Assembly (NCBI GenBank): GCA_030430755.1
Contig: JAUIKO010000002.1
Coordinates: 124,001 to 188,000, forward strand
Direction: 5' to 3'
From: Fimbriimonadia bacterium
Lineage (GTDB): Bacteria; Armatimonadota; Fimbriimonadia; Fimbriimonadales; Fimbriimonadaceae
DNA length: 64,000 bases
Positions 6,655 through 56,337 of this stretch are shown here, one piece after another. The translations under genes were made by a program, and so were the position numbers. Each line of letters starts with the position of its first letter. Position 1 is the first letter of the stretch. The notes under the pieces were generated by a model. That model searched no databases. It had not been told where the DNA came from and was given only the letters and a program-made list of their open reading frames with translations.

Positions 6655-6791
6655 ATGTAGCCACCAAAAAAATAGAACCTAATTAACTTATTCCATAATT
6701 AGACAACTATGAATTCATTCCTATTCACAAATAGATACTAGTACATCTATTGGGAAAAATATTTTTTCTACTCTACTAATACAGATTTATG

Positions 6792-6935
6792 TTCTGGCAT
6801 AGACTAACCTTCTGGAATAGACTAATCTTCTGGCACAGACTAATCTTCTGGTATAGACTAACCTTCTGGAATAGATTAACCTTCTGGAATAGACTAATCT
6901 TCTGGTATAGACGAACCTTCCGGAATAGATAAACT
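6792..6935. repeat. 18-bp tandem repeat, 8 units
   Basis: Eight units of TTCTGGAATAGACTAACC with one to three substitutions each run head to tail. Because 18 is divisible by 3, the array stays open on both strands: a WNRLTF hexapeptide repeat on the plus strand (ATG 6789 to TAA 6932, 47 residues) and LFQKVS on the minus strand. Neither frame has a ribosome binding site and the changes are not biased to third positions, so it is probably a non-coding minisatellite just upstream of the AtpZ-like gene. Confidence 0.85.
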
Positions 6936-7001
6936 TCTATGAAGATAAAAAAACAGTCCGTGATTATATTTATCTTTAATGATTCTGAGTATTCTAAAAG
7001 C

Positions 7002-14100: not shown

Positions 14101-16146
14101 TCAATCATAAAATATTTCAACTCCTCGCTTTATCAGTTCCTTCTTTATCTTTTCAAAATTTAATTTTATATCCATTCTCTTACTTATATATAATTTCTTT
14201 AAGTTGGAGTATTTCATTAATGCTTGCAAACTATCTGGGCTGCAACACGTTCCACTTAAAACAATAACTTCAATATTATCTGGAAGATTATATATCACAT
14301 TGTCCCACTTAGCTTGACTCATCTTGCAACATTCAAAATTTATATATACTAATTTAGTCAGTTTCTTTAAATTTTCGGCAGCTACTCCGGGATATTTGGT
14401 CCAGGACAAATTTAATACTTCCAAATTTGGGTTCAGGTTCTCCAAGAGTCTTGTCCACTCTTTGCAAGACTCTCTGGTCAGAAAACGATTTGTATTAACA
14501 TTTAATATCTCTAAATTTCCTAGTTCCTTAAACCTTTCAACTCCTTCCCAAGAATAATCATTCATAGTAAATTCAAATACTTCTAGAGAAGCTGGTAACG
14601 AACAAAAAAAATCGTTCCAAATTATTTTAGAAACATGCCCACCAATAAAGCACCCTGCAGCATAAAACTGTTTTAAATTTTTAAAGTTTTTTAAATTTTG
14701 AACATCTAATTCCTTAGTTTGAATATTAGAAATATTTAATATTTCTAAACTTGAAGGCAAAGATGCAAATAATCTAGAAGAATTTATTTCCGATAATAGG
14801 CAGTTGTACAAGTTCAATATTTCTATATTCTGACAACTCTTAAATTCTTCAATACTCTCTCCATGATAATCAGATTCTGTAAATATTACAGTAGTTAACT
14901 TTTTTGGAAGATACCTTATTAATCCATTCCAAGCACAACTATCGTTAAAACAACATGTGGATATTTCAAGGGTATCAAGATCGATACATTGTATTAAATT
15001 TTTGCCCCGCTCTCCTTTGTAATTACATTTTTTTATAATTAATGTATCCAATAATGTAGGGATACCTTCGAATAATAAACCCCAGTCAGATGGTGTCGAA
15101 CTTATCTCTTCTAGTATTAAGCATTTTAAGTTCTTTAGTCTAGCAATATAATTCAAACCAAGGGCTAACACTTTATTACTAGGTCTAGAATAATATCTAT
15201 ATCCCCCTTTTATCCTTAACTTTTCTAAAGATTCAGGTAAATTAGCTACTAACTGAGGAAAATTTTCTTTATCTTTCACTGATGTAAATTCTAAAAAAAA
15301 TTCTTTCTGATGAACTAAACAGCTGAAATCACATTTACCCAGTAATAGATTACTACCCTGGAATCCAGAGTAATGGTTATCGTCTCCATATCTGAAGTCA
15401 TTAATGCTAAAGGATCCTAAGTAGAATTTTTCAACAGTATTGGGTAAATATTTGATAATATTGCTTAATTTACAACATTTAAAAAATCCACCAGTTAAAG
15501 TTAAAGCTTCTAAAGATTTCATATTCGAAAACAATTGCTCTAATAAATATAAGTACTCCTTAACATCCACTATTTTTGTATAGTTGATCTCATATCTATT
15601 AGTAAAAGGGCTATAACTTCTGACATTAGTAGTTGTATTTTCCGTTCCAAAGTGCCGAAAATCAATACCTACAAAATTTAAATATACAAAGTATTCTTGA
15701 ATATTTTTTGTTAATATCGCATCCTTATCCAAGTCAGCATCAAAACATAAATATAAATACTTTATAGGTAAACAGTATGAAGAATCGCCTAAGTGGATTC
15801 TAATTTTTTCTGTTATTTTTATAAGCTGCGGAACTGTTTCCTTGCTGTAAATAGTATAATTCCATATTGAAAGCGAAAGTATCCATTCTATATCTATTTT
15901 TTCTGGAGCTTTATCAAGGAGTATGTAAATACGATCTATAACATAAACTCCATCCATCCCATCATTCATGAAAACTGTTTGTGTATCCTTTAAATAATCC
16001 TGAATAACTTTTTCACAGATTTCATTGGAATAGATAGGTGTAGTATCTTCCACAGCTCTTATTCCTATAGAAACACTCAGTATGAGCGAAGCCATCATTA
16101 TCTTCTCAACAAAATAATAAATCATCTTTTTCCACATACTATCCAT
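14101..16146 (-). CDS. Secreted leucine-rich-repeat protein
   Basis: 681 residues, the largest complete LRR protein here. A hydrophobic N-terminal stretch (MMASLILSVSIGIRA) looks like a signal peptide placed about 17 residues in. From about residue 230 onward the protein is built of paired LRR units of roughly 48 residues, one centred on 'LPSSLEILNIS', the other on 'FKNLKQFYAAGC'. Trp, Tyr-x-Gly and Cys recur at fixed places (W..LI.YLP, Y.GE). It is one of three tandem genes on this strand that share this pattern and so arose by duplication. Export and LRR architecture suggest a protein-binding surface or secreted factor, possibly host-directed (inference). Codon use looks like that of its neighbours. 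Confidence 0.85.
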   Translation of the reverse strand: MDSMWKKMIYYFVEKIMMASLILSVSIGIRAVEDTTPIYSNEICEKVIQDYLKDTQTVFMNDGMDGVYVIDRIYILLDKAPEKIDIEWILSLSIWNYTIYSKETVPQLIKITEKIRIHLGDSSYCLPIKYLYLCFDADLDKDAILTKNIQEYFVYLNFVGIDFRHFGTENTTTNVRSYSPFTNRYEINYTKIVDVKEYLYLLEQLFSNMKSLEALTLTGGFFKCCKLSNIIKYLPNTVEKFYLGSFSINDFRYGDDNHYSGFQGSNLLLGKCDFSCLVHQKEFFLEFTSVKDKENFPQLVANLPESLEKLRIKGGYRYYSRPSNKVLALGLNYIARLKNLKCLILEEISSTPSDWGLLFEGIPTLLDTLIIKKCNYKGERGKNLIQCIDLDTLEISTCCFNDSCAWNGLIRYLPKKLTTVIFTESDYHGESIEEFKSCQNIEILNLYNCLLSEINSSRLFASLPSSLEILNISNIQTKELDVQNLKNFKNLKQFYAAGCFIGGHVSKIIWNDFFCSLPASLEVFEFTMNDYSWEGVERFKELGNLEILNVNTNRFLTRESCKEWTRLLENLNPNLEVLNLSWTKYPGVAAENLKKLTKLVYINFECCKMSQAKWDNVIYNLPDNIEVIVLSGTCCSPDSLQALMKYSNLKKLYISKRMDIKLNFEKIKKELIKRGVEIFYD

Positions 16147-16295
16147 ATTTTCAACCTATCACTTTTCTATCATAACTATTCAGCACTTCTCTGAACATCT
16201 TCTTGCAAGCAATCAGTCATTCTTAAATCACTTACATCACTATAATCATCCATCGAATCGACCTATTCACTTACTTCGCTGAAACAATCATCATC
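16147..16295 (-). pseudogene. Decayed in-frame acidic tail after an LRR gene
   Basis: Directly after the TAA of the upstream LRR gene (stop at 16296-16298), the same frame continues as DDDCFSEVSE, a TAG (16263-16265), then VDSMDDYSDVSDL and so on to a TAG at 16176-16178. All three segments are rich in Ser, Asp and Glu, like the gene's own last residues (EDSDDSSSTSA). This suggests a former longer C-terminal tail cut by two nonsense changes, or less likely stop-codon readthrough. Confidence 0.45.
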
Positions 16296-17918
16296 TTAAG
16301 CAGAAGTACTGCTAGAGTCATCCGAATCTTCTGGAGTATCACCCATAAATCCAGAACCACTTAATACCTTTACACCTCTTCCACTGATTGAAATGTATCC
16401 TTGGCTATGGTCATTAATATTATAATTATGAGAAGAATTCGGCATTGCTATCCGAATATTTTTCTTGCATACTTCTAGGTTATATGGAACGAGAAAATCT
16501 AAATTATCTACTACAAATAAATCCACCGAATCTGGCAATAAAGAGAAAATTCTTTTCCAACTAGATACTTCAGAAATAGGGCACTTTCTAAGCTTTAAAT
16601 AAACCAAATGTTTAAATGATCTAAATACATCTGGAGATGAACCATCATAGTCTGAACCTCCCAAAGAAATTTTTTCAAGAGACTTAGGGAAAGCATGTAT
16701 ACAATCACCCCAGCCAGTATAATTACTAGGCAGCGGTAAGCTCCATACTATTTTTTTTAAGTTTATACATCTACTTAAATCTAACATATCCACATTAACA
16801 GAAACATTTTTTAACACCAGCTCTTCTAGCTCTTCTGAAGGATTTACTTTTAAATAATCATTCAATGGTTCCATACCACTAGAAGGTGCCAAATAAACCT
16901 TTTTCATTCTGTATTTATTTAACAACGTGTCTATGCCAGAACCATTCCAATTGGTTTTTTGCAAATATATACTTTTCAATGAATCATGAAATGAACCTAT
17001 TAGATGATTCCAATTCTCTATGTCTTCGAAATAAAGATGATCTAATTTTATTGATTTTAAATTTGAAAACCTTTTAAAGGAACTTATATTTTCACCATTA
17101 TAATTGCTTTTAGATAAATCTAGCACTTCGATAGATTCTGGCAATTGTTCTAAGACTCTCACCCATTCTTTAGGTAATAAATTAACTTTGTGTAAGCAAA
17201 TACTTTTTAAACCAGTTAATTTTCCTAAAATCTGCTCTAATACATCATCATTTCCTTGACTCCTATATTCGCTTAGATCTACCTCTGAAACGTTTATCTG
17301 ATACTCAAACAAACTCCAAATACTCCCATTCTTCTGGCTCTCGTCTTTTAGAACAAACTTATCTAAGCAATGAATATCTAAAAAATTAAAAAATTGAAAA
17401 ATGGATCTATCTATGATTTTAAGAATAATAGTATGAACACTCTTTCCATTTATACATTTTTCATAAATCAATTCTTTTTCTGGACTTTGTTCTGAAGCAA
17501 ATAAGCAAAGTTCGGAATCATTTAAACCTCTGTTAAACTTTATATTAGATATATTAAATTGAAATTCTGGCATCCGATACTTCTCGGCAATTAAAGCTTT
17601 TAATTCAAACAATTTTTCAAAATCGTCCGGTTTAATAATCCTATCTTTCCAAGGATCTGAAGTATTTAGATATTCGATTATTTTCGGTTCATTATAAAAA
17701 GAAAGATAATCATCTAATAATATAATAAAATCTCGAGTATCGCTGCATTCTACAAGATCTTTTTTAAAAGATTCATACACATTTTCTTTCCTTTCTAAAA
17801 AATTCATGTTTGGTGCCTTTTTAAAAGACTTACATCCACACATGCCAAACCCAATAGAATTATTAAAAAAGAATTGTATTGATACTACGATAGCAAATAA
17901 AGTTTTTATTCTCCACAT
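16296..17918 (-). CDS. Secreted leucine-rich-repeat protein
   Basis: 540 residues from the ATG at 17918; a GTG one codon earlier is equally possible. The N-terminus has a basic start and a hydrophobic stretch (TLFAIVVSIQFFF) that reads as a signal peptide, followed by a Cys-containing segment (GFGMCGCKSF). The region from about residue 230 to 500 has paired LRR units such as VLEQLPESIEVLDLSKSNY and FKRFSNLKSIKLDHL, the same double unit as in the flanking LRR genes. The C-terminus is acidic and Ser-rich (EDSDDSSSTSA), and the frame continues past the stop with more of the same composition. It is the middle gene of a three-gene tandem family. Function unknown. Confidence 0.85.
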   Translation of the reverse strand: MWRIKTLFAIVVSIQFFFNNSIGFGMCGCKSFKKAPNMNFLERKENVYESFKKDLVECSDTRDFIILLDDYLSFYNEPKIIEYLNTSDPWKDRIIKPDDFEKLFELKALIAEKYRMPEFQFNISNIKFNRGLNDSELCLFASEQSPEKELIYEKCINGKSVHTIILKIIDRSIFQFFNFLDIHCLDKFVLKDESQKNGSIWSLFEYQINVSEVDLSEYRSQGNDDVLEQILGKLTGLKSICLHKVNLLPKEWVRVLEQLPESIEVLDLSKSNYNGENISSFKRFSNLKSIKLDHLYFEDIENWNHLIGSFHDSLKSIYLQKTNWNGSGIDTLLNKYRMKKVYLAPSSGMEPLNDYLKVNPSEELEELVLKNVSVNVDMLDLSRCINLKKIVWSLPLPSNYTGWGDCIHAFPKSLEKISLGGSDYDGSSPDVFRSFKHLVYLKLRKCPISEVSSWKRIFSLLPDSVDLFVVDNLDFLVPYNLEVCKKNIRIAMPNSSHNYNINDHSQGYISISGRGVKVLSGSGFMGDTPEDSDDSSSTSA

Positions 17919-18136
17919 CACAATACTAGTATGTGGTTAAAATCTAAAAACTTTATATTTTAATTTACCCTTGTAGAAATACTTGGCCTTTTGTAGGACC
18001 TATTCTACTTAATATAAGCACGTAATTTTATATTCAGATATATCTAAGCAACCATTCCAAGTATAGTTTTTGATTATTAAACATCTTATCTAAAAAGAAC
18101 AACACTTGGTAAGTTCTGAAATGTATTAAAACTTAA

Positions 18137-19216
18137 TCACTCTATTTTTTCTGGAGAAAGAAATCTATTGGTACAATCTAAAACGATCTGATCTAAATTA
18201 AAATCTGCAGGTAAATAAATTTCTCGTAAATTACAAAATTTACTTAAATAAATCATTCCATTCCCATTCCAATTCGAATGATCTAAATTAATAACTTCTA
18301 TAGAAATAGGAAGGTTCTCTAATAATTCATCCCAATTTTTGGGATCATCAAATATGCAGTAACTTAAATCAATCCCCTTTAGTTCTGTACAATTAGCTAT
18401 ATTATCAACAAGAACTCCTTGATAATTACTATTGCTAAAATCAAGATATTCTATATTTTTCGGCATTGAACAGAGTAACATCTTCCACACTTCTCTAAAG
18501 AGCTTAACTCTTTGCATATGAAGTCGTTTTAGATCTTGCAGTGAAGCAATGTAACTTACTAGTCCGTAATCATATTCAGCTACCTCACGCCCAGAAATAT
18601 CGAGCTCAGTGATATCACTGGTTAAAATCCTATGAAGGGCACCAAAAGGTCTTCGATTTAGCGCTCCGCATAAGACAATTTTTTTTAAATTGTCTTTCCA
18701 AGTTTTATTAATACATAGACATATATTCCAATCCCAAACACTAATAATAATTTCATTTAAATATAGACCCACTATATTATCTCGATGGGGATATTTTTCA
18801 AAATAAGCATATGAACCATAATTTTCAAATTCAGTACTAGTCATTTCTCGATTAAAGTGAAATTTACTAATACCTATTGTAAAATCAGGATCTTTTGTTA
18901 AATGCTTACATCTACAAACAAGATCCCTGAATACCATAAAAACATCGAGATCTACTGCTGTGTTTTCCCAATATTTTGGATCACTTATTTGCCTTATACA
19001 TTTTTTTTTGGGATGAAGCTGCAAAATAACATGTAAGTATTGTAACTTATTCGATATACTCGATGTATTTTTTAATTTCTCAATAATTTGATCAATATCT
19101 TCATCAAACTTTATGTTTTTCTTAGAAATACAGAAACAAGGATAAGCGATTAGAACTGAATTGAATAATATTAATAAAATATATATATTTAATAAAGCTT
19201 TATAGACTATCTTCAT
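18137..19216 (-). CDS. Secreted leucine-rich-repeat protein, short form
   Basis: 359 residues, the shortest of the three tandem LRR genes. A signal peptide is likely (LLNIYILLILFNSVLIAYPC). LRR units begin near residue 200: LTSDITELDISG, IASLQDLKRLHMQ, SMPKNIEYLDFSNSNY, LPISIEVINLDHSNW. The 'LP..IE.L/I..SN' phrase and the following Asn/Tyr-x-G spacing are shared with its neighbours. It looks like a version with fewer repeats, consistent with gain and loss of units after duplication. It ends without the acidic tail seen in the middle gene. Confidence 0.83.
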   Translation of the reverse strand: MKIVYKALLNIYILLILFNSVLIAYPCFCISKKNIKFDEDIDQIIEKLKNTSSISNKLQYLHVILQLHPKKKCIRQISDPKYWENTAVDLDVFMVFRDLVCRCKHLTKDPDFTIGISKFHFNREMTSTEFENYGSYAYFEKYPHRDNIVGLYLNEIIISVWDWNICLCINKTWKDNLKKIVLCGALNRRPFGALHRILTSDITELDISGREVAEYDYGLVSYIASLQDLKRLHMQRVKLFREVWKMLLCSMPKNIEYLDFSNSNYQGVLVDNIANCTELKGIDLSYCIFDDPKNWDELLENLPISIEVINLDHSNWNGNGMIYLSKFCNLREIYLPADFNLDQIVLDCTNRFLSPEKIE

Positions 19217-39366: not shown

Positions 39367-40140
39367 TTAATTAATAAACTTTGTGGTTCTATGAGGTTTA
39401 TGCCATAACTCTAACTTTGGCCAAGATGTAAACATTAAACCAATTTTTTGAACAATTTCTGAAGAAGAATCTTCGGGACTTCTCCCTTCACGCAGATTAT
39501 GTGTGTGCTGGAGAAGTTTTCCAAAATCAATAAGAATCTCCTTTAAGTGATCAATCTCCTGAATATACAAATTCATCTGTTCAATACTTGATACTAATAT
39601 ATCTTGCAATAACATTCGATTTACATATGAAAAATCTAATACATGAGCTAAAGTATGATCACTATCAACACAAAAACTTTCCAAGGTAATTTTAGGTATT
39701 AAATATTCTATATGATGCTCATCATCTAATTTGCTATGTAATTTCCAAGAAATAACTTCTCTAAATACTCCCTCTTTATTCCATTCTGCTTCATCGATCA
39801 TCGAATGAATATTTTGGATATAATCCTGAATATCGTTCACTATTAAGCAATCATCCTGATTTTCGATATCTTTTTGAAAATGATATAATTCGTTTTGAAT
39901 ATTGAAAAAAATAAAATACAACCATTTTATAAAACAGAAATCTTTTTGAAAATTTTCTAATTCTAACTCATGATCTATAATATCATGACCACCTTGACTA
40001 TAAGAGTTATGATGAATAAATTCATCATACTGAGCCATTTTTGTTGAAGAGTCTTTGGATGTTTTTTTAAGCCACTTTCTCTCAGGTAATTCATGATTAT
40101 TCGTTGGCTGTCTAAAATTAGCATAAGTGAAAATACTCAT
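39367..40140 (-). CDS. Unknown cytoplasmic protein
   Basis: 257 residues, rich in Asp, Glu, His and Ile, with no signal peptide. Long helical stretches (LENFQKDFCFIKWLYFIFFN, SIEQMNLYIQEIDHLKEILI) suggest an all-alpha protein. No family recognised. It is convergent with the S41-like pair, with only 12 bp between the stop codons. An upstream region of 440 bp and the 82-bp repeat array separate it from glgA. Confidence 0.65.
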   Translation of the reverse strand: MSIFTYANFRQPTNNHELPERKWLKKTSKDSSTKMAQYDEFIHHNSYSQGGHDIIDHELELENFQKDFCFIKWLYFIFFNIQNELYHFQKDIENQDDCLIVNDIQDYIQNIHSMIDEAEWNKEGVFREVISWKLHSKLDDEHHIEYLIPKITLESFCVDSDHTLAHVLDFSYVNRMLLQDILVSSIEQMNLYIQEIDHLKEILIDFGKLLQHTHNLREGRSPEDSSSEIVQKIGLMFTSWPKLELWHKPHRTTKFIN

Positions 40141-40581
40141 AAACTCCTTACTCTCCCATACTCAGTCCCATTTTTCATCTATTATAATAAATTCTCTTTA
40201 TAATAAATTATGTTGATTATTATTGCAGTTATCTTATCATATCTTATATTAATATTATCTTATTACACTCCTTATTCACGAATAATCTTGATATTTTCAC
40301 CCTCAAAAAGATGTAATGCCAAGATAGACTCAAAATTACGAAAAATTAACCGAACAGAAATAATTTTGAAGTTTTCTCTTACCGAATTAATATATTTCAA
40401 CAAATTTTCTTGTCGGATTTTTATATCGGAATAAAAATATTCCTTCTAAGATATAAGATGTAGCCTTGTATATCTTATATCTTTTCAGCATATTGAAAAA
40501 CTTCCAACTAAATAATCATACTAGTGCACTTATAAGTATTAGATAAACTTTTAATTCTCAGTCACTAAAAAAACATATATT
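40141..40581. other. AT-rich gap before the repeat array
   Basis: It holds the upstream region of the minus-strand gene ending at 40140. A 74-codon frame at 40210-40434 lacks a ribosome binding site and has an arbitrary composition, so I do not call it. I see no clear hairpin or promoter. The 82-bp repeats begin at 40582. Confidence 0.4.
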
Positions 40582-41010
40582 ATGAAAGGATGATATATAA
40601 CCCGTATATCTCAGTATCTAAAAGTATATATAGCAAACTCAAAATTCATAACCAGTTAGACTTATGAAGGGATGCTATATAACCCTGATATCTCAATATC
40701 TAAAAGTATATATAGCAAACTCTATGTTCATAACCAGTTAGACTTATGAAAGGATGCTATATAACCCGTATATCTCAATATCAAAAGGTATATATAACAA
40801 ACTCAAAATTCATAGCCAACTAGAATTATGAAAGGATGCTATGTAACCCTTATATCTCAATATCTAAAAGTATATATAACAAACTCAAAATTCATAGCCA
40901 ACTAGAATTATGAAAGGATGCTATATAACCCGTATATCTCAATATCTAAAAGTATATATAGCAAACTCAAAATTCATAGCCAACTAGAATTATGAAAGGA
41001 TGCTATATAC
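40582..41010. repeat. 82-bp tandem repeat, 5 copies plus 19 bp
   Basis: Copies start at 40582, 40664, 40746, 40828 and 40910, each exactly 82 bp, with a partial sixth at 40992-41010 ending just before the glgA stop (41028). Each copy contains an inverted repeat, TGCTATATA with TATATAGCA or a one-base variant, about 27 bases apart. Copies 3-5 are the most alike. Copies 2-5 each contain a 25-codon frame starting ATGAAAGGATGC (ATGAAGGGATGC in copy 2); copy 1 has TGA at codon 4. There is no ribosome binding site and the changes are not synonymous, so the frames are probably incidental. The array sits in the 3' region of glgA. Confidence 0.95.
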
Positions 41011-41027
41011 TATAATTCCGAACGTAG

Positions 41028-42473
41028 TTAAGCAACCTCAGATTCTTTTTTTCTATTAATCTGACTTACCATTTGAGCTTTTTGGTACAGCTTCTGATAC
41101 TTTAAAGCACTTTTTTTCCAAGAAAAATCAGTTTCCATAGCTTGACGAACCATTTTTTCCCATATTTCTCTCTCTTCGTTATAGATATAAGCTATTCGAT
41201 TAACAGTATTTTGGAATTCACTAACATCTTGTGCTTCAAAAACAAAACCATTATAGAGATCTTTTACCGTATCTGCGAGCCCTCCTGTTTTACGAACTAG
41301 AGGAAGCGTGCCATATCTCATTGCTATCATCTGTCCTAAACCACAGGGTTCATAATTACTAGGCATTAAAATAACATCCGCTCCTGCATATAAGCGCTGT
41401 GCTAGATCTGCATCAAATTTATTAAAAATTCTTAATAACTCTGGTTTTTCTTTCTCTATCTTCTCTAATTCATTCGCTAAATGCTCATCACCCTTTGCCA
41501 AAATAATGAGTTGAATATTCTTTTCTTCTAATAATTTCAATGATTCCAAAATATAGTGAAATCCTTTCTGAGAACTCAACCTAGTCACCATTGTAGCCAA
41601 CAGTTTTGTGCTCTTTTTCCATCCCATCTCCTGCTGAACCGTTGCTTTACAAACTTCTTTTCCCTCAGTATTTAAGGGATTAAAATTCATCGCAATACTT
41701 GAATCCTTTTCTGCACTGAAAAAGTCAATATCTATGCCATTTACTATTCCAAATAAACGCTCTTGAGAGTATAGGTGTTTCATTAAGCCTTCTAACCTAC
41801 AACCATACTCCGGTCTCTGGATTTCTTTTGCATAATTCTCACTTACCGTATTTACAACATCAGAATAAACGCATCCTGACTTTAAAAAATTAACAGAACC
41901 AAAACTTTCTGTTTTATCCATTCTGTATAGAGATCTTGGGAGGTCAATAACATCCAAAGTATCCTCTCCAAATTCTCCTTGGTACCCTAAATTATGTATA
42001 GTAAAAACAGATGCTGAATTTGAAAAAGTATTTATCCATCTTTCTTTGAGCAGTACAGGTATAAATCCAGTGTGCCAGTCATTACAATGGAATACATCTG
42101 GCTTCCATTGCATTGCGTTACATACCTCAAAAAGTGATTCAGAAAATCTAAGATAAGCATCTCTGTCCACTGCATATAAAGTATCACTAGAGACTGAATC
42201 TTTAAAATCCCCTTCTCGCCCTTCAATCAGCCAGACCTTACAAGTATTAATATGTGTTTCATAGAGATTAATACCTTTTTTTTCTAAAACCTTATGATCT
42301 TTTTTAACTACTTTTAATTCCTTATGATTCAACAACATAGGATAAGCAGGTATCGCTATATGAGTTTCTACCCCTAATTCATTCAATGCCCTTGGTAGTG
42401 AAAAAGCCACATCGGCAAGTCCACCTACTTTTGCAAATGGAGCTAATTCTACGGTTATAAATAATGTTTTCAT
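41028..42473 (-). CDS. glgA: Glycogen synthase (ADP-glucose)
   Basis: Extends alpha-1,4-glucan chains from ADP-glucose (GT5 family). It starts MKTLFITVELAPFAKVGGLADV, where the KVGGLADV motif binds ADP-glucose. The C-terminal part has GxxP-type motifs EPCGLGQMIAMRYG and RKTGGLADTV. The length (481 residues) is normal for bacterial enzymes. It overlaps the thiolase gene by 4 bp, though the two have no metabolic link. No glgC or glgB lies in the window. The gene ends just before the 82-bp repeat array, whose hairpins could act in its 3' untranslated region. Confidence 0.95.
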   Translation of the reverse strand: MKTLFITVELAPFAKVGGLADVAFSLPRALNELGVETHIAIPAYPMLLNHKELKVVKKDHKVLEKKGINLYETHINTCKVWLIEGREGDFKDSVSSDTLYAVDRDAYLRFSESLFEVCNAMQWKPDVFHCNDWHTGFIPVLLKERWINTFSNSASVFTIHNLGYQGEFGEDTLDVIDLPRSLYRMDKTESFGSVNFLKSGCVYSDVVNTVSENYAKEIQRPEYGCRLEGLMKHLYSQERLFGIVNGIDIDFFSAEKDSSIAMNFNPLNTEGKEVCKATVQQEMGWKKSTKLLATMVTRLSSQKGFHYILESLKLLEEKNIQLIILAKGDEHLANELEKIEKEKPELLRIFNKFDADLAQRLYAGADVILMPSNYEPCGLGQMIAMRYGTLPLVRKTGGLADTVKDLYNGFVFEAQDVSEFQNTVNRIAYIYNEEREIWEKMVRQAMETDFSWKKSALKYQKLYQKAQMVSQINRKKESEVA

Positions 42474-50844: not shown

Positions 50845-51193
50845 TTCCTTATAGAATCAATAAAAAAGATAGACCTTCCATCAACATAGTTTTCACCGCA
50901 AAGACAATACACTTATTTTAATCACGCACCATATTCAATAACATCCTGCCTGCAAAACATTGCTGCAAAAAAAGCAATGTTTTGTTTTTCTACAAATCAA
51001 CGTTTAGAAAAATAAAAAAATATCCGATACATGCCTAGAGATGGAATGGATCTACTAGTAATTGCACCTGATAGAGTTTTAGGATGTCTCTATGTACATA
51101 AAACCTATCCATTCACAAGTTCATATCCATACATCAAAAACATTCAAAATAAAAATTACTTCATATAAAAGGCATTACAAATTTGGAGAAAAA
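50845..51193. other. Gap with terminator and lipoprotein leader
   Basis: It contains the terminator at 50953-50989 and the leader of the Asp/Met-repeat lipoprotein. A 45-codon frame at 51031-51168 has no ribosome binding site and is not called. The long frame's extension upstream of 51194 is also not used. Confidence 0.4.
50953..50989 (+). terminator. Rho-independent terminator
   Basis: CAAAACATTGCT pairs with AGCAATGTTTTG (12 bp, 8-base loop), followed by TTTTT at 50985-50989. It is about 110 bp after the stop of the secreted protein gene. Confidence 0.85.
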
Positions 51194-53293
51194 ATGAAAG
51201 AAAATAGAAACCAAAAAATTTTTCACATAGCTGGAGCAGTTGTTTTAATGGGATTAGTAGGGTGTGGTGGAACCAATACAGTATCTACTACATCCATATC
51301 GAATAATAAAAATGGTACATATAAGAACTTTATAACCAGAATGGATAATACTCCCTCTGATATTACTGCTGAAACAATCTACAACAAAGTATTTAACTAT
51401 CAAAAAATAACTCCAGAAGATGTAAAAGCCTTAGAAAAAAACGGTTCAAATGAAAACGGCTGGGTTGTAAATACATCACCAAGTGGTACTGTAATCATAA
51501 AAATTGTAATGAGTACACCTTCTGTACTTATTACAGCAGAAGAAATTAACGCAGATGAAACGAGTGATGTTGATACAAAAAAACAATCTTTCTCATACTA
51601 CTGGAACGAAGACAACACAATGTTAATACCAGAAGGATACAAAGGTAGTAGTGCTGTTCAAGTACAGAACGTAGAAAATCCTACACTAGAAAAAGAACCT
51701 ACAGTAGAAAATGATAGCATAAGTTCTAATAGTACTGCTACTAATCCAACAATAAATCCTACACTAGAAAAAGAACCTACAGTAGATCATAATGGCATAA
51801 GTTCTAATGTAGTAAAACAAATGGATGGAGACGAGGAACAACTAAGTAGCCCAACAACAGAACTGCCAGTATATACAAAACATAAAGATGACATGAATTC
51901 TGACGATCCAGAATATATTAGTACAGAAGATCACAGGAGTCTTGATAAAGAACAGTACGCTTCGCCAGAAAACGATTATAAAGATAATCGCCAATACATG
52001 TACGAAGAAAATAATATTTCAGAAGGAGATCGGCAACATACCCCATCAGAAAATGATATAAATGAAGATGTTTACTACACTACGAATTATTCTCCAGACA
52101 GTTATTCAGAAGAGTATCCTCAGCATGACTCCGTAAGAAATTCACCTCCTTCTTCACCATATAATTCTACTAATTTTAAAGAAGATGTAGAAAACCTCAC
52201 TAAAGTTATGCTGCTTGCAGGTAATCGAGATAATCCAAATATAGGTGATATGCCAAATCCATTACATCTTGCACAAGGATTATTAGGGGCATTACACAAT
52301 AATGCTTATCCTGAATTATTAAAAGATCTTCAGCCAGTATTCAATAAAAATGAAGAAAGCGATGCAGAAACTGATGCAGAAAAAGAAGCTGATGTAATAG
52401 CAAGATTAAAGAATATCGATTTCACTCAAATGGAAGAATATCAAGACCTAACAAGAGCCTTTGAAGAAGCTAAAAATAAAAACAAAGAAGACTCAAACGA
52501 ATCTGGAGAAACTCATGAAAACTCTCTAGATGATCTACGAAAAGCTTCTGTTATTCTTCTTGACGGATTGGCTAAAGCTAGAGAAATGATGTCAAGAGAA
52601 CACCCAGTCGAAAGCCCTAACGATGATTCTATTGGAAATGATATGCCAGGAGACTTGCCAACTGGAGATATGCCAACTGGAGATATGACAGGTGACATGC
52701 CAACGGATATGCCAACTGGAGACATGACAGAAGATATGCCAACTGGAGACATGACAACTGATATGCCAGAAGACCTGCCAGAAGATATGCCAACTGGAGA
52801 CATGCCAGAAGACATGCCAGGAGATATGCCAACTGGAGACATGACAACTGATATGCCAGGAGATATGCCAACTGGAGATATGACAGGAGATATGACAACT
52901 GATATGCCAGGAGATATGTCAACTGGAGACATGACTGGTGACATGCCAACGGGAGACATGACAGAAGATATGCCAACTGGAGACATGACAGAAGATATGC
53001 CAACTGGAGACATGACAACTGATATGCCAGAAGACCTGCCAGAAGATATGCCAACTGGTGACATGCCAACTGGAGACATGGAAACTGGAGATATGCCAGG
53101 AGACATGACAGAAGATATGACAACTGGAGACATGACTGGTGACATGCCAGGAGATATGCCAACGGGAGACATGCCAGAAGATATGCCAGGAGATATGCCA
53201 ACTGGTGACATGCCAACTGGAGACATGGAAACTGGAGATATGCCAGGAGATATGACAGAAGATATGACAACTGGAGATATGACAGAAGCGTAA
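51194..53293 (+). CDS. Lipoprotein with Asp/Met pentapeptide repeat domain
   Basis: 699 residues from the ATG at 51194, chosen because GGAG lies 5 bases before it and the lipoprotein signal (IFHIAGAVVLMGLVGCGG) begins here; the frame itself opens at 51092. The lipidated Cys is about residue 24. A conserved-looking domain of about 130 residues is followed by an acidic, Ser/Asn/Glu-rich region containing NPTLEKEPTV twice, then a helical stretch, then about 215 residues made only of pentads such as GDMPT, GDMTE, EDMPT. The C-terminal domain is about one-fifth Asp and one-fifth Met with no Lys or Cys. It is likely surface-exposed or periplasmic. Met/Asp-rich arrays could bind metal ions, or simply form an extended stalk; no family is recognised. 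Confidence 0.82.
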   Translation: MKENRNQKIFHIAGAVVLMGLVGCGGTNTVSTTSISNNKNGTYKNFITRMDNTPSDITAETIYNKVFNYQKITPEDVKALEKNGSNENGWVVNTSPSGTVIIKIVMSTPSVLITAEEINADETSDVDTKKQSFSYYWNEDNTMLIPEGYKGSSAVQVQNVENPTLEKEPTVENDSISSNSTATNPTINPTLEKEPTVDHNGISSNVVKQMDGDEEQLSSPTTELPVYTKHKDDMNSDDPEYISTEDHRSLDKEQYASPENDYKDNRQYMYEENNISEGDRQHTPSENDINEDVYYTTNYSPDSYSEEYPQHDSVRNSPPSSPYNSTNFKEDVENLTKVMLLAGNRDNPNIGDMPNPLHLAQGLLGALHNNAYPELLKDLQPVFNKNEESDAETDAEKEADVIARLKNIDFTQMEEYQDLTRAFEEAKNKNKEDSNESGETHENSLDDLRKASVILLDGLAKAREMMSREHPVESPNDDSIGNDMPGDLPTGDMPTGDMTGDMPTDMPTGDMTEDMPTGDMTTDMPEDLPEDMPTGDMPEDMPGDMPTGDMTTDMPGDMPTGDMTGDMTTDMPGDMSTGDMTGDMPTGDMTEDMPTGDMTEDMPTGDMTTDMPEDLPEDMPTGDMPTGDMETGDMPGDMTEDMTTGDMTGDMPGDMPTGDMPEDMPGDMPTGDMPTGDMETGDMPGDMTEDMTTGDMTEA
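52640..53286 (+). repeat. 15-bp degenerate coding repeat, about 43 units
   Basis: Units of the form GATATGCCAACTGGA, with variants GACATGACAGAA and so on, run head to tail through the 3' third of the lipoprotein gene. Larger blocks recur (for example the segment around 52735-52810 is repeated around 52985-53060), so units have been copied in groups. All changes keep the reading frame. Confidence 0.9.
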
Positions 53294-53471: not shown

Positions 53472-53519
53472 TTTTCATAGGTTAGCAGTTAAGCTTGTAT
53501 AACTGCTAACCTATGAAAA
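53472..53519. terminator. 20-bp perfect stem, bidirectional terminator
   Basis: TTTTCATAGGTTAGCAGTTA (53472-53491) pairs with its exact reverse complement at 53500-53519 across an 8-base loop, between the convergent lipoprotein and unknown-protein genes. Confidence 0.85.
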
Positions 53520-53545
53520 TAAATCTCATTTATCCAACAAATCTT

Positions 53546-54589
53546 TTAACGAATAATCACTTGACCTGATTCACCAGGTTTTCCAATAATTGTCAAATAA
53601 GCAGGTATAAACTGTTTTACAATGTAGGATGAAGTGACTAGTGAATTATTTACTTGTCCAACATTAAAACGAGTACTAAGTCTATTAAGTATGATGGGAG
53701 ATATATTCAACCACTCATAACCATTAGGAAAAATACTCCCTGAATTCAACCACTTTAAAAAATCATTCAAGTACCAATCTACATGCGATAAATCCTTGGA
53801 GCAGAGAAAACTAAAACCTCCGATCCCTCCTTCATATTCCGAACTTAGGTTAACAAATACATTATTTGCATTAAAATCATTTTCAATTAAATCAAGTCTT
53901 AGATTTAATCCTTCAATCTCTAATCTTTTCTGTATTTTACTAAATATCAGTCTCGCATATTTTTCATTCTTTTCATTATGCATAATGGTTAGTTTTGAAC
54001 TCGTTAGATTTCCTAAAAAACCTTCACTGTCAACATTTACCAGACTAGGTTCTATATCTAATCTACAAGTGATTTCATCATGAGAATAATGAACATCAAC
54101 TGCAACCTCTAGTCCTATTTTTTTAAACATTATCGTAGATAAATATTTAAATCTATTTATCCCTACAAAGGTTTCCGTATTATTAGAAAAACGAATATTT
54201 ATCGTAGAATAATCTTGTTGACTAGATAATAAAATCGTAAGTAATTCAAGAAAAAAAACCTGATAACCGACTGAACCTCTAACTTCAATTTCTCTTTCTA
54301 TTTTATGCTCGGGCAAATGATTTGGATAAAACAAGAAATAAGTACTATTAGGCTCATCCATTAAGCTATTATCACCAACTAAATTTTTAAGGATATTTAT
54401 ATATTGATGATTATATAATAAAGGACTAATCTGCTTAGAACTACGATTTTCCATTTTTAATGGAATTGATTCAACCGACCAAGGTTGTTGGGTCAAACAA
54501 CTTATGAGTAGTCCAGTCGTCAAAAAAACATCTAAATCAAAACTATCTCTATAACGAGTAATTATAGGTTCCTTTATATGTTTATGCAC
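53546..54589 (-). CDS. Unknown protein, possibly a lipoprotein
   Basis: 347 residues from a GTG at 54589. After about 20 polar residues there is a short hydrophobic stretch ending LLISC (VFLTTGLLISC), which could be a lipobox with Cys at residue 31; the actual start might then be later and non-ATG. The body is beta-rich with phrases such as IEREIEVRGSVGYQVFFLEL and EGGIGGFSFLC, and ends in PGESGQVIIR. No family recognised. Convergent with the repeat lipoprotein. Confidence 0.65.
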   Translation of the reverse strand: MHKHIKEPIITRYRDSFDLDVFLTTGLLISCLTQQPWSVESIPLKMENRSSKQISPLLYNHQYINILKNLVGDNSLMDEPNSTYFLFYPNHLPEHKIEREIEVRGSVGYQVFFLELLTILLSSQQDYSTINIRFSNNTETFVGINRFKYLSTIMFKKIGLEVAVDVHYSHDEITCRLDIEPSLVNVDSEGFLGNLTSSKLTIMHNEKNEKYARLIFSKIQKRLEIEGLNLRLDLIENDFNANNVFVNLSSEYEGGIGGFSFLCSKDLSHVDWYLNDFLKWLNSGSIFPNGYEWLNISPIILNRLSTRFNVGQVNNSLVTSSYIVKQFIPAYLTIIGKPGESGQVIIR

Positions 54590-55653: not shown

Positions 55654-56337
55654 TCAATCTCTTTCAGTGAGTACAATTATTTTTTTAATAACTTTATCTA
55701 ATGTTAAATTTGTAGAATCAATATATAAAGCATCTGGATGCCTTGTTAAAGGGCTCTCTTTTCGATTAGTATCCCTTTCATCTCTAGTCTTAATATTTTG
55801 GTACATTTCATCCCAAGAAATCATAATCCCTTGATTATGCATCTCTTGTTTTCTTCTTTTTACTCGCTCTTCGATATCTGCAGTCAAAAAAACCTTTAAA
55901 TCAGCATCCGGAGCTACTACTGTCGTAGTATCTCTTCCTTCTAAAATATGCCTTCCAGAACTTATAACTTCTCTCTGTAGTCGAAATAAAAATGATCGCA
56001 CTTCTTTAAATGCACTGATTCTACTAGCAAATTCAGAGATTTCAGGAGTTCTAATCTTACTTGAAACAGATAGATTATTGACAAATATTTCATTATTCAC
56101 ACCACTCCTATGAAAATGAATCGATATATTTTGAAGGATATCAACGATTAACTTTTCATCAGTCGGTTCAATCTGATTTTGAATACATGTGAAAGCAATA
56201 GCGCGATACATGGAACCTGTATCTAAGTAATCATATCCATACTCACTTGCAATCATTCTGCTTACGGTACTTTTTCCTGCTGCGGCAGGTCCATCGATGG
56301 CAATAACAAATCTATCTGCGAGTTCCATAAATATCAT
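55654..56337 (-). CDS. cmk: Cytidylate kinase
   Basis: Phosphorylates CMP and dCMP. P-loop IDGPAAAGKSTVSRMIA, YLDTGSMYRAIA, and LEGRDTTTVVAPDA (family consensus GRDIGTVV, so two residues vary), then DPLTR-like ESPLTRHPDA near the C-terminus. The length (227 residues) is typical. ATGs at 56337 and 56328 are both possible starts. Together with gmk and the dCMP deaminase it shows nucleotide conversion is retained. Confidence 0.94.
   Translation of the reverse strand: MIFMELADRFVIAIDGPAAAGKSTVSRMIASEYGYDYLDTGSMYRAIAFTCIQNQIEPTDEKLIVDILQNISIHFHRSGVNNEIFVNNLSVSSKIRTPEISEFASRISAFKEVRSFLFRLQREVISSGRHILEGRDTTTVVAPDADLKVFLTADIEERVKRRKQEMHNQGIMISWDEMYQNIKTRDERDTNRKESPLTRHPDALYIDSTNLTLDKVIKKIIVLTERD

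Follow-up and report, generated by a model that had tools for sequence, protein, structure and literature searches.

Background

Anchored lipoproteins with fast-changing repeat tails are a known theme in bacteria. The multiple banded antigen (MBA) of Ureaplasma joins a conserved lipoprotein N-terminus to a C-terminal tandem-repeat domain that includes a 12-bp period, and its superfamily is described as having periods from 12 bp and members with different repeats (PMC3511179). A second point of reference is the Met-rich MXKDX repeat peptide of Brucella, which is linked to hypochlorite resistance (PMC8315932). We analysed a lipoprotein gene in a stretch of DNA of 64,000 nucleotides (the window) that adds to this theme a distinctive repeat, an Asp-Met pair every 4 to 5 residues, in a bacterium of a reduced-genome lineage. 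The genome that holds the window is referred to as G000, and one genome of the same genus as G001.

Gene and protein layout

The gene lies at 51194-53293 on the forward strand and, from its open reading frame and translation, encodes 699 residues. A Shine-Dalgarno-like ggaga at about 51185-51189 precedes the ATG. An alternative upstream start at 51092 is possible, in which case the lipobox would be buried. A promoter scan gave fewer sites than were found in shuffles, and an Rfam search of the window returned no match. Residues 1-26 (51194-51271, forward strand; MKENRNQKIFHIAGAVVLMGLVGCGG) form a signal peptide and lipobox that resemble those of other family members. By inspection, the lipobox is LVGC at residues 21-24, so that the protein carries both the signal peptide and the lipobox Cys by which a lipoprotein is recognised. 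We infer a surface position from the lipobox together with the Gly directly after its Cys, a sorting rule by residue after the Cys that comes from E. coli.

Four further regions follow on the same strand. Residues 59-147 (51368-51634) form an alpha/beta domain of about 89 residues, identified by leave-one-out HMM and AlphaFold2. An acidic linker, residues 148-327 (51635-52174), is predicted to be disordered and is nearly without secondary structure in a five-sequence model of very low confidence. Residues 328-468 (52175-52597) make up a helical segment, for which helices are predicted with low confidence and which matches a 356-residue lipoprotein of G001 by BLASTP (34% identity over 114 columns, E 8e-10). 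The Asp-Met repeat tail, residues 482-699 (52637-53290), was characterised by unit count, codon comparison and shuffles. No match of the whole protein in Pfam or NCBIfam cleared the cut-off of its family, the NCBIfam MXKDX family was not among the matches, and a PDB sequence search gave no match at E of 1 or less. A 16-bit match to a topoisomerase I N-domain fell below the cut-off and was taken as chance, as was a Cry1Ac_D5 match of 13.6 bits, also below cut-off, for the gene upstream.

Downstream of the gene, an inverted repeat seen by eye at 53475-53520 (ggttagcagtt...aactgctaacc) may be a terminator common to two converging genes. The 347-residue protein encoded at 53546-54589 on the reverse strand matched RNA 3'-terminal phosphate cyclase at 28.1 bits against a Pfam cut-off of 27 bits; with cmk (55654-56337) about 1 kb from its gene, it could be a divergent EPSP-synthase-fold protein, the aroA-cmk gene neighbourhood being the basis for the suggestion. 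Elsewhere in the window, an 82-bp tandem unit (5.3 copies, 91% matches) lies at 40579-41009 between open reading frames 39367-40140 and 41028-42473, and an 18-bp tandem repeat (8.2 copies) at 6781-6938 separates a prepilin-like gene from the next open reading frame. A prepilin shows weak DUF1559 similarity, at 23.1 bits slightly below the cut-off of 23.3, which gives no more than a hint of the Planctomycetes-Verrucomicrobia-Chlamydiae group, with which that family is associated. Three adjacent exported-looking proteins are encoded on the reverse strand at 14101-19216, among them those at 14101-16146, with no Pfam match, and 18137-19216; the middle protein of the trio has weak leucine-rich-repeat matches below cut-off.

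Composition and copying of the Asp-Met tail

The 218 residues of the tail comprise 49 Asp, 46 Met, 41 Thr, 32 Gly, 30 Pro, 14 Glu, 3 Leu and one each of Asn, Ser and Ala. This gives 63 acidic and no basic residues, and neither Cys nor His occurs. Met accounts for 21% of the tail, compared to 2.5% in 21 window genes. The tail resolves into 49 D[ML] units (46 DM and 3 DL), with a step from unit to unit of 4 residues in 28 instances, 5 residues in 20, and never more than 5. It is a mixed tetrad/pentad array in which D-M adjacency is fixed and the pentad is not. When the tail was shuffled with its composition preserved (n = 2000), D[ML] pairs averaged 11 with a maximum of 20, and exclusive 4/5 spacing arose in 0 of the 2000 shuffles; the spacing pattern is beyond chance.

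Copying is evident at larger scale. TRF returned a 147-bp higher-order unit in 3.4 copies, a block of 39 codons recurs 87 codons away with 95% identity, and the longest exact internal repeat of the array, 92 bp, occurs at 52706 and 52967. As a common read of 150 bp would span this repeat, the assembled length of the array is plausibly correct. An earlier note on this DNA had described the protein as a lipoprotein that ends in a long repeat of Asp and Met, with these two residues at set positions, few other amino acids in use and units copied in groups. These points are borne out by the lipobox, the 49-unit array and the repeats just described. Its figure of about 43 pentapeptides is replaced by the 49 units with their mixed steps.

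Possible constraint on the Asp-Met pair

Codons were compared among all 49 units, for which no p-value is claimed, the units being defined by D[ML] and related by copying. The Asp codon is GAT in 27 units and GAC in 22, and Asp is lost in none; in 21 other window genes, GAC makes up 14% of Asp codons. Among the 1176 unit pairs, which are not independent, the Asp codon showed 594 synonymous and 0 nonsynonymous differences, and the two flanking codons showed 615 and 620 nonsynonymous differences. The residue preceding Asp is Gly in 32 units, Glu in 11, Thr in 5 and Asn in 1, and the residue following Met or Leu is Pro in 30, Thr in 16, Glu in 2 and Ser in 1. No Asp-less unit was overlooked inside the array, because no spacing above 5 occurs. 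Neighbouring residues and silent sites have so had time to mutate, with the Asp-Met core kept apart from the 3 Leu. The pattern is suggestive of possible selection on the pair. It is best read as a constraint on a hydrophilic, acidic and extended chain with regular Met contacts.

A lipoprotein family with differing tails

Relatives of the protein were searched for in 61 genomes with the region ahead of the tail, and matches were confined to its own genome and G001. Two are encoded elsewhere in the own genome, on contigs C14 (at least 1154 residues, the contig end falling inside its repeats) and C19 (806 residues); two are adjacent lipoproteins of G001, with 356 and 1003 residues. The C14 protein shares the N-terminal 130 residues with the window protein at 28% identity. 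In the genome search, the C19 protein aligned with residues 4-59 (E 1.8e-4); pairwise BLASTP of the two gave no significant match (best E 0.27), and the C19 protein matched the 1003-residue protein of G001 at E 6e-14. All five members, from two genomes, begin with a similar signal peptide and lipobox, and GCGG at the lipobox is invariant in 5 of 5. A start this short would by itself be weak evidence of common descent.

The tails differ from member to member. The C14 protein carries DPNMDPNHNPGMEGEHTEE-type repeats, the C19 protein an acidic tail of His, Gly and Asp, the 1003-residue protein a PVPVMPEMENDVVSTVPGIN-type repeat and the 356-residue protein a short acidic tail. All five tails are high in Asp plus Glu with few or no Lys and Arg, and the Asp-Met motif is absent from those of the relatives, including both in G001. 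Counted per 100-residue tail block, the window protein has 21-22 Met, C14 has 9-11, the 1003-residue protein 2-9 and C19 4, and the final 56 residues of the 356-residue protein have 0; Met richness is raised in 3 of 5 tails and is not a family trait. Homologues with the same N-terminal domain and an unrelated low-complexity tail were what the earlier note had said would speak against its reading, and the four relatives, with a similar lipoprotein N-terminus and unrelated acidic or low-complexity tails, are of this kind.

A small lipoprotein of 71 residues (P0002, 48992-49207, reverse strand), encoded 2 kb upstream and unrelated to the 699-residue protein, has a tail in which a 13-residue unit, ANKDE(H/S)AAPAAAE, is twice repeated. 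Its homologue in G001 (L019:1286-1579, reverse strand) keeps the signal peptide and has HAEAN-type 5-residue repeats instead. In this genus, lipoproteins seem habitually to turn over their repeat tails.

The 89-residue domain and structure prediction

Among 61 genomes, the 89-residue domain turned up in one, its own, with one copy in the window protein, four in the C14 protein and three in the C19 protein. Searching the own genome with the domain model (A3) returns the model's own training rows, so that E-values are not independent, and the same holds for A1. In leave-one-out scoring, the window copy reached 15.9 bits, a value reached by 0 of 200 shuffles. For the eight copies together, the shuffles that reached the real score numbered 0, 7, 0, 0, 0, 3, 3 and 11 of 200, an uneven support in which four copies stood above all shuffles and all eight above most. 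AlphaFold2 predicted two helices followed by a beta-sheet, with a mean pLDDT of 76.8. Foldseek with this model gave a best E of 0.23 and no match at E of 0.001 or less, and VIA-align a best Z of 4.8 (rmsd 3.8 over 70 residues). Neither search gave a clear fold match for the domain, and a known fold is still possible. The whole-protein model had a mean pLDDT of 33.9, very low confidence throughout, and was used solely for the absence of regular structure in the tail, where no secondary structure was predicted.

Searches for the tail elsewhere

A search of 61 genomes with the tail matched the own genome and G002, and a search of 291 genomes of the phylum matched these and G233. Both G002 (RDFGGDRPQ-type repeats) and G233 (TGDVTGN repeats) were set aside as composition look-alikes, leaving no relative of the Asp-Met tail in the 291 genomes beyond the own one. 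A scan of 84,980 species (genome_contigs, which may omit the own genome) yielded 15 pattern matches, 1 of them confirmed, and viral_contigs yielded 3, none confirmed. The confirmed match is a three-unit MPTGD linker in an unrelated 738-residue membrane protein of Rhodococcus. This linker is all that came of looking for DM-pentad repeats in other genomes, as the earlier note had proposed. Literature searches on Met-rich scavengers, Met-rich or tandem-repeat lipoproteins and MXKDX turned up no Asp-Met repeat of this kind.

Repair and metal-handling partners

We searched the own genome, which is 97.7% complete, for proteins expected to accompany a methionine-based sink or a copper route. MsrA was not found there (the same search was positive in 12 of 14 control genomes), nor were MsrB (10 of 14) or the MsrP-type domain PF00174 (9 of 14). 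The heavy-metal (HMA) domain, which bears on HMA-type copper handling, was likewise not found in this genome, and the search was positive in 13 of 14 controls. MsrA was found in neither genus member, G000 or G001; all 17 genomes searched from other genera of the family have it, as do 7 of 12 genomes that belong to the order but to other families. With MsrA missing from both genomes of the genus, the presence of 46 Met in an exported tail is puzzling. No metal gene was recognised by eye among the window open reading frames. Because these expected partners, the Msr families and HMA, were not found, both a repairable Met sink and the standard copper route are disfavoured.

Function of the tail

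With moderate confidence, we favour the reading that this lipoprotein, restricted to its genus, probably sits at the cell surface and that the tail forming its C-terminal third, intrinsically disordered, polyanionic and expanded by repeats, serves as an extended spacer, a brush or a low-affinity contact surface. As an extended, charged and disordered chain, the tail would most likely coat or hold the surface of the cell. It would grow and turn over as units of 12-15 bp and larger blocks are copied, and in this way each family member or species would come to carry a tail of its own on a lipid-anchored base similar to that of the others. P0002 and its G001 homologue favour this reading by showing the same pattern, a conserved signal peptide with differing tails. 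We consider a spacer or surface coat more probable than a trap dedicated to metal or oxidants. The spacer, which the earlier note had offered as the plain alternative, thus fits best, similar anchored starts carrying different tails, and the dedicated roles in copper or soft-metal binding and in oxidant scavenging that it had put forward are unsupported. A pure spacer is nevertheless disfavoured in part, because it would not need an Asp and a Met or Leu fixed in 49 of 49 units with variable neighbours. Met is also prone to oxidation, and the C14 and 1003-residue tails are Met-raised as well, at 8-11 per 100 in parts.

Thioethers and carboxylates every 4-5 residues could instead act as many weak surface sites, making the tail a multivalent buffer for Cu(I), Ag, Ca or Mn. 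Asp and Met are indeed the two near-invariant positions, and the abundance of acidic residues and Met without any basic residue would suit such a role. Still, we regard it as unlikely: the tail lacks Cys and His, its motif is missing from the relatives' tails, and neither an HMA domain in the genome nor a recognised metal gene in the window was found. Known copper sites are spaced MxxM or MxM, and the adjacent D-M differs from both.

In a bolder reading, the Asp-Met pair would itself be the functional unit, the tail being a linear, disordered chain of 49 carboxylate-thioether pairs, tethered to the surface and kept under purifying selection for multivalent binding of soft or divalent metal or of a host ligand, in a lineage without methionine sulfoxide repair. 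We offer this as speculation to which we attach a low probability. If the constraint on the pair is functional, the tail would represent a natural polymer of thioethers and carboxylates, and an unusual one.

The array could also be a non-functional low-complexity expansion, a product of slippage tolerated at the C-terminus, with the fixed Asp-Met as a founder effect. High-order block copying fits such an origin, as does the confinement of the tail to one genome, the three-unit linker aside. We consider it quite improbable, as the many amino-acid differences in flanking codons and the many silent ones in the never-lost Asp codon count against it, as do the absence of any gap over 5 residues and a frame maintained up to the stop codon.

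An oxidant sink of the MrpX/BcrX kind, in which surface Met is sacrificially oxidised and the cell protected, has the raised Met content and the Brucella MXKDX peptide, as outlined in PMC8315932, in its favour, but is very improbable given that no MsrA, MsrB or MsrP-type domain was found in the genome, that MsrA is missing in the genus and present in all 17 family genomes of other genera, and that Met is not conserved across the relatives' tails, a one-way sink without repair being the possible form.

Comparison with known systems

The pentapeptide repeat consensus is A(D/N)LXX, and the tail resembles pentapeptide repeat proteins (PF00805) in having Asp followed by a bulky residue and, in part, 5-residue steps. 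Unlike in PF00805, Met is mostly followed by Pro or Thr. This fold was rejected, as only 20 of 48 steps are of 5 residues and 28 are of 4, and no match was obtained at E up to 0.1. The RTX calcium-binding nonapeptide is GGxGxDxUx; the tail has no GG, no RTX model was among the Pfam matches, and this candidate was rejected as well.

With MrpX/BcrX, the window protein shares export and a short repeat with Met and Asp at fixed positions. It differs from the MXKDX repeat in that D and M are adjacent, Lys and Arg are absent, the spacing is a mixed 4/5 and the repeat belongs to a 699-residue lipoprotein. In addition, the domain of the MsrPQ partner (PF00174) was not found in the window genome.

The nearest known design appears, by analogy, to be that of Ureaplasma MBA. 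The relatives of the window protein are scattered over the genome, unlike those of MBA. Similar N-termini joined to differing tails are nonetheless seen in five proteins from two genomes, and in architecture the window lipoprotein can be likened to MBA as outlined in PMC3511179, with a conserved N-terminus for signal peptide and lipid attachment and a variable repeat tail.
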